From Streptomyces sp. Ncost-T10-10d (GTDB lineage: Bacteria > Actinomycetota > Actinomycetes > Streptomycetales > Streptomycetaceae), in assembly GCF_900091955.1 (NCBI RefSeq), contig NZ_FMDF01000138.1, positions 1-64,000 of the forward strand: a stretch of DNA of 64,000 bases, written 5' to 3'. The position numbers and the translations under genes are program-made. Numbering within the stretch: the stretch's first letter is position 1; every line of letters begins with the position of its first letter. Positions 43,769 to 47,413 of the stretch are shown piece after piece. The notes under the pieces were generated by a model. It saw nothing but the letters and a program-made list of their open reading frames with translations, had not been told where the DNA came from and ran no database searches.

Positions 43769-44443
43769 TCAGGAGTTCAGATAGGTGAGCACCGCCAGTA
43801 CCCGGCGGTGATCCCCGTCACTGGGGGACAGGCCCAGTTTCAGGAAGATATTGCTGACGTGCTTCTCCACGGCCCCGTCGCTCACCACCAGCTGCCTGGC
43901 CACCGCGGAGTTCGTCCGGCCCTCCGCCATCAGGCCGAGCACCTCGCGCTCGCGCGGCGTCAGCCCGGCCAGGACGTCCTGTTTACGGCTTCGCCCCAGC
44001 AGCTGCGCCACGACTTCCGGGTCCAGTGCCGTCCCGCCCTGCGCCACCCTGACCACCGCGTCCACGAACTCCCGGACCTCGGCGACCCGGTCCTTCAGCA
44101 GGTACCCCACACCTCGGCTGGATCCGGCCAGCAGCTCGGTCGCGTACTGCTCCTCGACGTACTGCGAAAGGACCAGTACCCCGATTCCGGGATAGTCCTT
44201 GCGCAGCCGCACCGCCGCCCGCACGCCCTCGTCGGTGTGGGTGGGCGGCATCCGCACATCGGCGACCACCACATCGGGCAGCGCATCCTGTCCGGCGAGA
44301 TCATGCACCGTCTTGATCAGCGCCTCGGCATCCCCCACCCCGGCGACGACGTCATGCCCGAGATCGGTCAGCAGCCGGGTGAGCCCCTCCCGAAGCAGTA
44401 CCGAATCCTCGGCGATGACTACTCGCACCCTGTCCTCCACCAT
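43769..44443 (-). CDS. NarL/LuxR-family response regulator
   Basis: A 224-residue two-component response regulator. The receiver domain has the acidic pair in VVIAEDS, the phosphoacceptor aspartate at about 62 ([10 protein letters not shown]) and GYLLKDRV. The C-terminal LuxR-type domain is [46 protein letters not shown] at 44443 is likely, with GGGGGA 9 bases upstream; GTG three bases later is possible. Its probable partners are the two kinases encoded just upstream. Confidence 0.93.
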
Positions 44444-44514
44444 GACGCTGTATCCCCCACTGCTCGCTGGTCCCGTTTGTATGACGTCCAGCATCCCAGT
44501 ATCGGCAGTGCCGT

Positions 44515-44566
44515 GTCCCCGGCCGCCGGACCGGCTCGAGATCAAGCCGGTCCGGCGGTCGGGGAC
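44515..44566 (-). terminator. Large hairpin between histidine kinase 1 and the response regulator
   Basis: A 22-bp stem (44515-44536 against 44545-44566) with a single G/T mismatch and an 8-base loop. It starts 60 bases after the stop of kinase 1 on the minus strand and lies 72 bases before the regulator start, so it should reduce or block read-through from the kinase genes. Confidence 0.8.
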
Positions 44567-44625: not shown

Positions 44626-45981
44626 TCAGCCGCGCCACGGCAGCTCGGCCGTGATCCGGGTCGGGCCGCCCTGCGGGGAATCCACGACGAGTACGCCGTC
44701 CACCGCGTCCAGCCGCTCGGTCAGCCCGGCCAGCCCGCTGCCCGAGGACACATCGGCGCCGCCGCGCCCGTCGTCCGTGACCTGGAGCATCAGCCGGTCC
44801 GCCGACCGCCACACATCGACCGACGCACGGGTCGCGCGTGCATGCTTGCTCACGTTCTGCAACAGCTCCGAGACCGTGAAGTAGGCGATTCCCTCGATGG
44901 CCTGGGCCGGCCTGGACGCCAGGTCCACTTCGACCGTCACGGGGACGGTGCAGCGGGAGGCGATGGCGGAGAGTGCGGCGTCGAGGCCTCGGTCGGTGAG
45001 GACGGCGGGGTGGATGCCGCGGGCGAGGTCGCGGAGTTCCTGGAGGGCGACCTTGACCTCTCCGTGGGCCTCGTCGACCATGCGGGCGGCGGCCTCGGGG
45101 TCGTCGGTCAGCTTCTCCTTCGCCAGGCCGAGATCCATGGCGAGGGCGACGAGCCGGGCCTGTGCGCCGTCGTGCAGGTCGCGTTCGATGCGGCGCAGGT
45201 CGGCGGCGGCCGTGTCGACGACCACCCCGCGGTCCGACTCCAGTTCGGAGACGCGCGTCGCCAGCCGGGACGGCCCGAGGAGCCCCGCCACCATCACCCG
45301 GTCCACGCCCGCCAGACCACGGATGATCCACGGTGTGACGAGGACGAGTATCAGGCCGCACACGCTGGTCGCAGCCAGCTCGAAGGGGGAGTCGAGATAG
45401 ACGTGGTGGCCGTCGTCCCCGTACAGCTGGATGCCGCCGGTCCCCACGGACGCCGGGAAGACCCACTGCCACAGCGGGTAGGTGAGGGTGGCCCACCCGC
45501 ACGACCAGAGCGTCAGCGAAAGGGTGAAGGCGAAGATCGCCCACGGGAGGTGCAGCAGCGCGTAGAGCAGATGCCGCCAGGACGCCCCGCTCTTGAGGAC
45601 CGCGCCCACCCAGGACAGCAGGCCGCCGGTCCTGCCGTGCACCGGTGCCGGGTCCGCCACGTCCAGCTTCAGCAGCCCGCGCGCCCGGGCGCGCTCCATG
45701 GCGCCGAAACCGCGGCACATGGCCAGCGCGCCGGCCAGGATCGGAACCCCGAGGAAGGTGATCAGCATGCCGATGCCCAGCGTCGTCAGGGTGATCGAGA
45801 GGCTGAACAGGACCACGCTGATGGGCAGGCTCAGCAGCAGATAGCCGAACTCGCGCCAGGTCCTGCCCTCGAAAGGCGCGCGCAGCGCGGCCGGGAAGAA
45901 GTGCTTCACCGGGGGAGGGTCCCCGAAACCGGCTCCGGACCGCTGGTGGTCCCGAGTGTCCGGTCCATATGCCGTGGCCAT
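44626..45981 (-). CDS. Sensor histidine kinase (copy 1)
   Basis: A 451-residue NarL-type kinase. The N-terminal sensor part has four hydrophobic helices (about residues 45-95 and 130-235) of the putative-sensor type. The phosphoacceptor region is DLRRIERDLHDGAQARLVALAMDLG (histidine in LHDG). The ATPase domain has VSELLQNVSKHARATRASVDVW, QVTDDGRGGADVSSGSGLAGLTERL. A 310-bp stretch (44933-45242), covering the histidine box and following helices, is identical at the DNA level to the next kinase. ATG at 45981 is a plausible but not certain start. Confidence 0.9.
   Translation of the reverse strand: MATAYGPDTRDHQRSGAGFGDPPPVKHFFPAALRAPFEGRTWREFGYLLLSLPISVVLFSLSITLTTLGIGMLITFLGVPILAGALAMCRGFGAMERARARGLLKLDVADPAPVHGRTGGLLSWVGAVLKSGASWRHLLYALLHLPWAIFAFTLSLTLWSCGWATLTYPLWQWVFPASVGTGGIQLYGDDGHHVYLDSPFELAATSVCGLILVLVTPWIIRGLAGVDRVMVAGLLGPSRLATRVSELESDRGVVVDTAAADLRRIERDLHDGAQARLVALAMDLGLAKEKLTDDPEAAARMVDEAHGEVKVALQELRDLARGIHPAVLTDRGLDAALSAIASRCTVPVTVEVDLASRPAQAIEGIAYFTVSELLQNVSKHARATRASVDVWRSADRLMLQVTDDGRGGADVSSGSGLAGLTERLDAVDGVLVVDSPQGGPTRITAELPWRG
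44933..45242. repeat. 310-bp identical segment, copy 1 (in kinase 1)
   Basis: Base-for-base identical to 46557-46866 over the whole 310 bp in direct orientation, 1624 bp apart, as far as I can compare by eye. The identity includes third codon positions. A further 56-bp identical block lies nearby (around 44843-44899 and the matching part of kinase 2). Outside these blocks the two genes differ clearly. Confidence 0.93.
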
Positions 45982-46207
45982 GGGTGCAGTCCGTTTCTTC
46001 TCATGGAGCCGGTTTCTCCGGTGGTTTCGGGGTTCCGGCCGGTACATCAAGGGTGCTGGGTCGCGGGTCGGCGGACCATGAGGGCGGTATCCCTCTTCGA
46101 CCGGGGGTTTTCCCCACCTTGCCAGGGGGCTCAGGGGGCTGGGCCCGGCGGGCCGGTCCTCTGGGGCGCTGGGCCCAGGTGTGCTGGGCCTTTGGGGTCC
46201 TGGGCCT
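45982..46207. other. Spacer between the two kinase genes with GGGCC-rich repeats
   Basis: About 225 non-coding bases. The part from 46130 to 46205 contains several copies of CTGGGCC/GGGGCGCTGGGCC-type words, with GGGCCC palindromes, which could fold into several alternative stems; I cannot define one terminator. No gene with normal codon bias is seen. Confidence 0.5.
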
Positions 46208-47413
46208 CTAGGGACGCTTGGCCGCCCCGGTACGGTTCGGCTCCCTCTCCCGGTCCCGCCAGGGCAGTTCCGCGGTGACCGTCGTAGGACCGCCGACCGG
46301 CGAGTCGAGGACGAACAGCCCATCCACGGCGCCCAGCCGTTCGGCCAGCCCGGCCATGCCCGTACCGCCGTCCATCCGGGCCCCGCCCTGTCCGTCGTCG
46401 GTGACCTGGATCAGCAGCCGGTCCGCCGACCGCCACACCTCGACGGACGCCGAACGTGCCGCACTGTGCTTGCTCACGTTCTGCAACAGCTCCGAGACCG
46501 TGAAGTAGGCGATTCCCTCGATCGCCTCCGCGGGACGCGCAGGCAGATCCACCCCCACCGTCACGGGGACGGTGCAGCGGGAGGCGATGGCGGAGAGTGC
46601 GGCGTCGAGGCCTCGGTCGGTGAGGACGGCGGGGTGGATGCCGCGGGCGAGGTCGCGGAGTTCCTGGAGGGCGACCTTGACCTCTCCGTGGGCCTCGTCG
46701 ACCATGCGGGCGGCGGCCTCGGGGTCGTCGGTCAGCTTCTCCTTCGCCAGGCCGAGATCCATGGCGAGGGCGACGAGCCGGGCCTGTGCGCCGTCGTGCA
46801 GGTCGCGTTCGATGCGGCGCAGGTCGGCGGCGGCCGTGTCGACGACCACCCCGCGGTCCGACTCCAACTCGGCGATCCTGCGCTCCAGCTCGTCGGACGG
46901 CGAGAGCAGCCCGCGCACCATCGCCCGGTCGGCGTGGGTGAGAAGCCGCGCGATATAAGGGAGCACCGGCCACAGCACGATGAGGCTCACGAGCGTCACG
47001 GCGAAGGTGAGTACGCCCCAGGGCAGGCGTACGAAGGAGTACAGCACCGCCCGCCAGCCCACCGGGTCCGCGAGGCTCGACCACAGCCAGGGGAAGAACC
47101 CCTGTTCCCGGCGGGACAGAACCATGGGGCTCGGTTCGTCGATCCGCACCCCGAGCATCGCCCGCGCCCGGCCCCGCTCGGCCCTCCCGATCAGCCGCGC
47201 CCCGTGCAGTCCGGCGGCGAGCAGAGGCAGACCGATCACCGTGACCGCAAGCCCCACGCCGATGCCGATCATGAACACTGTGCAAACAAACCCGGCGATG
47301 GTCATGGGGAGATTGGCCAGGAGATGGGCGATCTCCTTCCACGTCCACCGATCGAGGGCGAAGCGGGCGGGCGGTGGCCGGTCGTTGTCGGGCACCAGTG
47401 GGCTCATGGTCAT
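46208..47413 (-). CDS. Sensor histidine kinase (copy 2)
   Basis: A 401-residue paralogue of kinase 1. The N-terminal sensor half has four helices but differs from copy 1 in sequence. The kinase core contains the same DLRRIERDLHDGAQARLVALAMDLG box. The ATPase end has SELLQNVSKHSAARSASVEVWRSADRLLIQVTDDGQGGARMDGGTGMAGLAERL. Both kinases are on the same strand as the single response regulator, so the two may feed different signals into it. It is divergent from the second nuo cluster. Confidence 0.9.
   Translation of the reverse strand: MTMSPLVPDNDRPPPARFALDRWTWKEIAHLLANLPMTIAGFVCTVFMIGIGVGLAVTVIGLPLLAAGLHGARLIGRAERGRARAMLGVRIDEPSPMVLSRREQGFFPWLWSSLADPVGWRAVLYSFVRLPWGVLTFAVTLVSLIVLWPVLPYIARLLTHADRAMVRGLLSPSDELERRIAELESDRGVVVDTAAADLRRIERDLHDGAQARLVALAMDLGLAKEKLTDDPEAAARMVDEAHGEVKVALQELRDLARGIHPAVLTDRGLDAALSAIASRCTVPVTVGVDLPARPAEAIEGIAYFTVSELLQNVSKHSAARSASVEVWRSADRLLIQVTDDGQGGARMDGGTGMAGLAERLGAVDGLFVLDSPVGGPTTVTAELPWRDREREPNRTGAAKRP
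46557..46866. repeat. 310-bp identical segment, copy 2 (in kinase 2)
   Basis: Partner of 44933-45242 in direct orientation; ends where the two sequences change from CTCCAACTC to CTCCAGTTC. See copy 1. Confidence 0.93.

Follow-up and report, generated by a model that had tools for sequence, protein, structure and literature searches.

Why should two tandem histidine kinases, clearly diverged in their sensor halves, be identical base for base over the middle of their genes? The question is raised by the window, a stretch of 64,000 nucleotides (positions 1 to 64,000 of contig NZ_FMDF01000138.1) from Streptomyces sp. Ncost-T10-10d, in which kinase A (44626..45981, minus strand) and kinase B (46208..47413, minus strand) stand beside a single response regulator. 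The gene set is that of AbrC: B is the orthologue of AbrC1/SCO4598, A that of AbrC2/SCO4597, and the regulator that of AbrC3/SCO4596. An earlier note on this DNA had attributed the shared segment to recent gene conversion centred on the phosphotransfer core, and our comparison of many genomes bears this out, own silent identity strongly exceeding cross identity in the segment and not in the adjacent linker. The two AbrC kinases descend from an old duplication, with sensors that were already evolving separately before the sampled Streptomyces diverged, and the segment comprising the dimerisation and histidine phosphotransfer (DHp) helices and the start of the ATPase domain has repeatedly been made alike within genomes. 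These data support the window block as a recent instance of a recurrent, core-centred gene conversion through Streptomyces, the recombination itself being what we infer. Inside the converted helix, one residue stays different between the two copies in most species.

The identical block in the window

In A, the tract (44933..45242, minus strand) covers the DHp helix pair and the start of the ATPase domain, from inside the codon of residue 247 to inside that of residue 350 (residues are numbered as in A). As the earlier note had described, it matches the tract in B (46557..46866, minus strand) at 310 of 310 bases, the match being maximal at both ends, and its flanks are diverged, with 19/40 bases identical at 45243-45282 and 145/195 (74%) at 44632-44826. 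A second, near-identical patch in A (44843..44903, minus strand) agrees at 60 of 61 bases with its partner in B (46467-46527). Because this patch is separated from the main block by 29 diverged bases (44904-44932), 13 of which differ, the identity in the window has the pattern of a mosaic. When codons are treated as independent, the product of the codon-by-codon cross-genome identities over 100 codons of the block is about 10^-23; therefore chance and protein constraint cannot give the 310-bp block. The next-best DNA match within the genome is 74% over 225 nt.

Loci and measures

Of 344 Streptomyces genomes sampled, 337 have a relative of AbrC3 at E <= 1e-100. We used 80 named loci, which are the best 80 of 577, and 80 further loci picked by hand among the matches listed, mostly from genomes of at most five contigs, plus some drafts whose regulators most resemble that of the window. 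With the window, these 161 loci less 4 duplicates give 157 unique ones, among which 141 have two kinases and 16 do not. In seven of these 16 the contig ends before the kinases and three more are cut by contig ends (L009, L051, L073); L010 and L032 contain N runs and were left uninterpreted, in L157, on one contig, no kinase was found, and L013, L070 and L159 have a single one. Leaving out L112, which has two remote kinases, gives the 140 pairs used for silent-identity and exact-run figures. Without L053, L101 and L028, which are cut or mis-joined, there are 137 pairs for trees, profiles and the conversion index, and with L041 moved to the sister genera there remain 136 Streptomyces pairs for the counts at residues 283 and 279. 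The sister-genus set comprises 17 loci of the family, 8 with two full kinases and 9 with one kinase or a partial second; 7 of the 8 were used together with L041 (L193 is from the same genome as L041). Eight more loci were looked at solely for remoter systems, and a thinned set of 41 pairs served for checks on residue 283. Identities are those of silent codons, 'own' meaning A against B of one genome and 'cross' A against B of different genomes.

Concerted evolution of the kinase core

Over core residues 247-399, silent identity between A and B was.801 for own and.635 for cross comparisons, a difference that 0 of 5000 permutations reach, whereas in the linker (residues 236-246) the two values were.539 and.544. 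This within- against between-genome comparison is the one that the earlier note had proposed. The 67 genomes of at most five contigs give the same picture, with.799 and.630 in the core and.529 and.540 in the linker. The longest exact run has a median of 69 nt in own pairs against 26 nt in cross pairs. Among 19,460 cross-genome comparisons its maximum was 128 nt, which is exceeded by 23 of the 140 own pairs. The longest own runs are found in L065 (496 nt, or 559 by direct comparison), L166 and L118 (492 nt each), and the 310 nt of the window rank seventh.

The excess of own over cross identity starts at residues 247-252 and fades from about residue 397. Protein identity between A and B leaps from.34 to.98 at residue 247. 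The upstream edge of conversion thus coincides with the edge of homology, and therefore purpose is not needed to explain it. On trees, the label A or B changes only once for the sensor, against 84 times for residues 247-281 (shuffled mean 91.5), 40 times for residues 305-397 and 14 times for the C-terminal end. This is what concerted evolution looks like: at silent sites, paralogues of one species resemble each other more than those of different species do, and the sensor flank preserves the old A/B split with its single label change. The case is also a warning that trees drawn from kinase cores mislead in such converting pairs.

A difference kept inside the converted helix

Copy-identity information averages.007 bits across residues 247-282 and rises to.66 bits at residue 283, thirteen residues past the phosphorylated histidine (H+13). 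The codon of this copy-specific site lies at 45133..45135 in A and at 46757..46759 in B, both on the minus strand. Residue 283 is Asp in 128 of 137 A copies and Gly in 128 of 137 B copies. Taken as A/B pairs in the 136 Streptomyces loci, there are 119 Asp/Gly (D/G), 9 Gly/Gly (G/G), 7 Asp/Asp (D/D) and 1 Asp/Glu (D/E), and an alignment-free tally on 137 pairs returned the same counts.

The silent sites around this codon form a narrow notch. From.71 at codons 276-280, the silent conversion index drops to.33 at codons 281 and 287 and to.02 (bootstrap -.05 to.12) at codons 284-285; over all 137 pairs it is -.02 at codon 284 and.08 at codon 285. Codon 284 agrees in 39 of the 119 D/G pairs, CTG being commonest in A and CTC in B. 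Over codons 272-280 we estimate a converted fraction of.72, whereas 16 of 136 pairs are alike at 283. The thinned set gives.74 against 9/41, and there codon 284 agrees in 18 of 41 pairs, for a cross value of.42. Silent divergence thus peaks narrowly around a fixed replacement difference, as in the red and green opsin genes treated by Teshima and Innan, where conversion between neighbouring duplicates is likewise frequent and divergence peaks around the functionally different residues (accessible part of PMC3924837). In contrast to the opsins, the AbrC case is bacterial, concerns tandem signalling kinases, extends over 136 Streptomyces pairs, is narrowed to a few codons and centres on a residue whose functional difference is putative.

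Outside the genus the picture changes. In the 8 sister-genus pairs residue 283 is alike in both copies (Asp in 7, Glu in L196), and no notch was seen in these eight, codon 284 agreeing in 6/8 (cross.43) and codon 285 in 8/8 (cross.75). It therefore appears that B acquired its Gly near the base of Streptomyces, although the remoter, B-like kinase of L200, which has no full A partner, carries Gly at this position too. Within the genus, the alike states are scattered, nearly all of them on single tips. For 17 events, L041 included, the p value of tip-only overwriting at 283 is about.002 on one tree and about.001 on another. Sites 292, 300 and 311, by contrast, show 10-13 changes for 38-43 alike pairs.

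Direction of the event in the window

The window is itself an exception to D/G, with GAT (Asp) at residue 283 in both copies. Ranked by sensor identity, its 14 nearest relatives comprise 9 D/G, 2 D/D and 3 G/G pairs. Because most near relatives are D/G, the last event would have run from A to B, the B tract bearing at the diagnostic residue the Asp usual for A and being thus the presumed recipient. Most likely about 310 bp, plus perhaps the 61-bp patch, were copied from the AbrC2-like A into the AbrC1-like B. The identities of the tract to the A and B copies of relatives are too close to settle direction alone. We also considered T292 and R300 as markers and rejected them, most near relatives carrying them in both copies, and for this reason the direction rests on residue 283.

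Alternative explanations

The block could in principle be produced without any exchange of DNA in the cell. In an assembly artefact, a collapsed short-read repeat would have had its consensus written into both genes. The window genome is a draft of 243 contigs, and in L053 and L101 runs of N occur within the kinases or between them; yet a single contig holds both copies, their flanks are distinct, identical patches alternate with diverged ones, and among the 67 genomes of at most five contigs 22 have runs above 100 nt and 10 exceed 128 nt, with a maximum of 492. We judge this explanation very improbable. These genomes answer the caution of the earlier note on this point for the phenomenon at large; for the draft assembly of the window, two true copies are the probable reading. 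The tandem arrangement would also agree with a whole kinase having been duplicated very recently, its sensor and tail then diverging fast, but we rejected this because the sensor tree contradicts it, a single change over 137 genomes being enough to part the two copies; full pairs are moreover present in sister genera. We give it practically no credit, and hardly differently treat the idea that purifying selection on the protein together with codon choice suffices. Protein identity across species does reach 0.90-1.00 over residues 247-282, but the gap in core silent identity between own and cross comparisons, reached by none of the permutations, led us to reject constraint alone.

Two other possibilities concern the notch and the reason for conversion, and carry more weight. 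The notch might be mechanical, mismatches at 283 or in the hairpin beyond ending the tracts without selection. The hairpin (residues 291-302) is poorly converted too. Residue 279 (H+9; 45145-45147 in A, 46769-46771 in B) differs in 52 of 136 pairs by 1-3 bases, mostly with Ala in A and Asn in B, and beside it the index falls from.81-.86 to.31 (codon 278) and.35 (codon 280), although choosing such pairs already favours unconverted ones. However, the signal beside 279 is lowered and not lost, whereas at codons 284 and 285 it is about zero. Moreover, a block alone does not hold Asp and Gly each in its own copy genus-wide, and both kinds of alike pairs, D/D and G/G, occur. A purely mechanical notch is thus unlikely in our opinion, without being negligible. 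Equally doubtful to us is that homogenisation is itself favoured since both kinases must fit one regulator, the purpose proposed in the earlier note. Residues 247-282 do form one protein pool, amino acid identity within copies being about that between copies, and there is one regulator. Similarity alone, though, permits conversion; the upstream edge follows homology, and the best protected difference adjoins the docking residue and is kept in 119 of 136 pairs, facts that weigh against that proposal.

Several observations weigh against recurrent, core-centred conversion with selection at residue 283. Silent identity also shows a small own-over-cross excess in the sensor (.595 against.575) and in the C-terminal end (.583 against.546), beyond all 5000 permutations at 140 pairs; with 67 pairs the sensor excess was reached in 110 of 10,000 permutations. 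It probably reflects a codon bias of the whole genome, with some putative conversion of the tail. The window tract comes from a draft assembly, and in L101, its closest relative by regulator, N runs lie in both kinases. The notch is weaker at codon 285 in the thinned set, where 18 of 40 pairs agree for a cross value of.31. The 16 alike pairs mean that selection is not absolute, and L118 and L120 come together as a single Gly/Gly pair once the tree includes the sister genera. Tip changes are also abundant at the copy-specific sites 351, 399, 415 and 425 (14, 22-25, 17-18 and 22-23 changes for 22, 48, 27 and 46 alike pairs, respectively), so the contrast with 283 is not uniform. The hairpin constitutes a second, broader resistant stretch with copy-specific residues and an index of about 0 at codon 302, and the drop beside residue 279 may be a weaker notch of the kind seen at 283. 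Finally, a codon-pair preference after GAT or GGG alone could make codon 284 differ.

Proposed mechanism and selection

Taken as a whole, the explanation that we favour, recurrent conversion of the AbrC core with selection holding residue 283 apart, seems to us highly probable. RecA-dependent recombination would occur between direct repeats about 1.6 kb apart, with tracts starting and ending within the stretch similar enough to pair. Its usual outcome would be gene conversion in either direction; an occasional crossover would delete the tail of B and the sensor of A and leave one chimeric kinase. Within Streptomyces, exchanges covering residue 283 would mostly be purged, A faring better with Asp and B with Gly, and this purging would leave the narrow notch of silent divergence around codon 283. 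The pair would then offer, in bacteria and over more than 100 species, a case where conversion erases differences between kinases while one residue appears to be held apart by selection, and with it a test, set up by nature, of the way selection withstands gene conversion.

What could this residue do? The DesK kinase is of the same HisKA_3 class and matches the AbrC core at E 1.4e-14, with no gap between the histidine and H+13. In the DesK-DesR complex, Leu200 (H+12) docks into a pocket of the regulator, and Gln193, the phosphatase residue, is at H+5 (accessible part of PMC5231405). At H+13, DesK has Lys and the AbrC copies Asp or Gly; at H+5, DesK has Gln and the AbrC copies Ala. The phosphorylated histidine of EnvZ is His243, which places T250, L254 and A255 at H+7, H+11 and H+12. 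These three residues, on the helix below the histidine, set the partner of EnvZ (available text of PMC2991266). EnvZ is however a HisKA kinase, unlike the HisKA_3 kinases of AbrC, and the AbrC difference lies between two kinases of one regulator. By analogy, residue 283, adjacent to the equivalent of DesK Leu200, may tune the balance between phosphotransfer and phosphatase activity rather than the choice of partner. Seven related HisKA_3 kinases of the same genome carry Arg, Asn, Met, Asn, Arg, Leu and Arg at H+13, with Met at H+12 in all seven, a variety as would be expected for a position setting individual behaviour.

In S. coelicolor, AbrC consists of two kinases and one regulator, with phosphorylated His270 in AbrC2; the kinases are similarly expressed and transcribed in common, antibiotic output rises when abrC1 is deleted, and deleting abrC2 had no clear effect (accessible part of PMC4428217). 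According to the same text, its authors suggest that AbrC2 is the better phosphorylator of AbrC3 and that AbrC1 acts probably via phosphatase activity. Residue 283 is a natural candidate for this asymmetry between AbrC1 and AbrC2, a link that we draw by analogy, and the way in which two kinases share one regulator may be set at this position. Going further, it is conceivable, if rather speculative, that near the base of Streptomyces a redundant twin became a kinase with an output of its own, for example a phosphatase-leaning one, when Gly arose at H+13 of AbrC1, that selection has since excised this position from an otherwise freely converting core, and that D/D and G/G species are natural losses of the division of labour. 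If true, AbrC3 output should be altered in D/D species, that of the window included, and in G/G species. At H+5 (45157-45159 and 46781-46783) both kinases have Ala, and at H+4 Gln, residue 275 being Ala in 137/137 of each copy; Ala at H+5 would seem odd in a kinase proposed as a phosphatase.

The two kinases are 57% identical in S. coelicolor, and the system is present in all Streptomyces sequenced at that time (accessible part of PMC3098853). The accessible parts of PMC4428217 and PMC3098853 do not mention conversion between the AbrC kinases. No earlier report of conversion in histidine kinases or AbrC, and no paper pairing AbrC1 with gene conversion, was found in the titles and abstracts searched, most subscription papers lying outside that search. 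Conversion is reported in the ntrX regulator gene of another bacterium (PMC9937504).

Genes of the locus

In the window, the order kinase-kinase-regulator on the same strand, with B upstream and A downstream, is that of AbrC. Kinase A has 451 amino acids, counted from the ATG of MATAYGPD, with PF13796 Sensor, HisKA_3 and HATPase_c domains. Kinase B, of 401 amino acids, has PF13796 Sensor and HisKA_3; its HATPase_c scores 22.8, under the Pfam cut-off of 26.4. The regulator (43769..44545, minus strand) combines Response_reg and GerE, that is a receiver and a LuxR-type domain, in the domain scan; its coordinates are those of the listed open reading frame (ORF), and its true start lies probably inside that frame. 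Sensor plus HisKA_3 kinases with a receiver plus LuxR-type regulator are what we take to define AbrC. The phosphorylated histidine of A is at 45172..45174 (minus strand) and is residue 270, as in published AbrC2; that of B, at 46796-46798 (minus strand), is His206 of the window protein. The gene names come through the S. coelicolor gene numbers SCO4598, SCO4597 and SCO4596, published descriptions and His270. The nearest namesake among the loci compared is S. coelicoflavus (L033), which is D/G at residue 283. With respect to S. coelicolor AbrC, the B kinase of the window has the H+13 residue usual for A. Beside the locus lie what we presume, from ORF translations, to be nuo and 2-oxoacid:ferredoxin oxidoreductase genes.

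Chimeric, single and aberrant loci

Two loci, L013 (a draft) and L159 (a genome of 2 contigs), have a single kinase with a sensor and linker of B type, the linker being.97 identical to B and.45 to A in both at the amino acid level. At residues 400-425 the likeness turns over, with.82 to A against.68 to B in L013 and.77 against.64 in L159, and both kinases end A-like, directly after the PWR motif. Upstream, the start of an ORF resembles the nuoA-like gene of the window, clearly in L013 and less so in L159, and AbrC3 follows downstream. These chimeras agree with the remnant that would be expected from a crossover between direct repeats. Contig ends near the regulator, counted by eye among the matches listed as a possible trace of a long repeat, were evenly placed, 5 on the kinase side and 5 on the other.

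In L070 (3881-5603) the regulator is preceded by only one kinase, of A type, and no nuo gene was seen beside it. We rejected this locus as a deletion product, as the kinase sits beside a different gene, an ORF that presumably resembles chorismate mutase; this suggests a relocated or second AbrC-like system. In kinase A of L001 and L002, the N-terminal matches fall in another reading frame than the rest, through a frameshift in the sensor or a sequencing error. L157, from a one-contig Streptomyces genome, has neither kinase within 5.5 kb upstream of the regulator. In another genus of the same family, L203 holds a kinase pair sharing an exact run of 636 nt, the longest seen, in a fetched stretch with no AbrC3 match. 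In L112, two remote kinases (about 35% identical to B of the window) precede the regulator and replace the usual pair.

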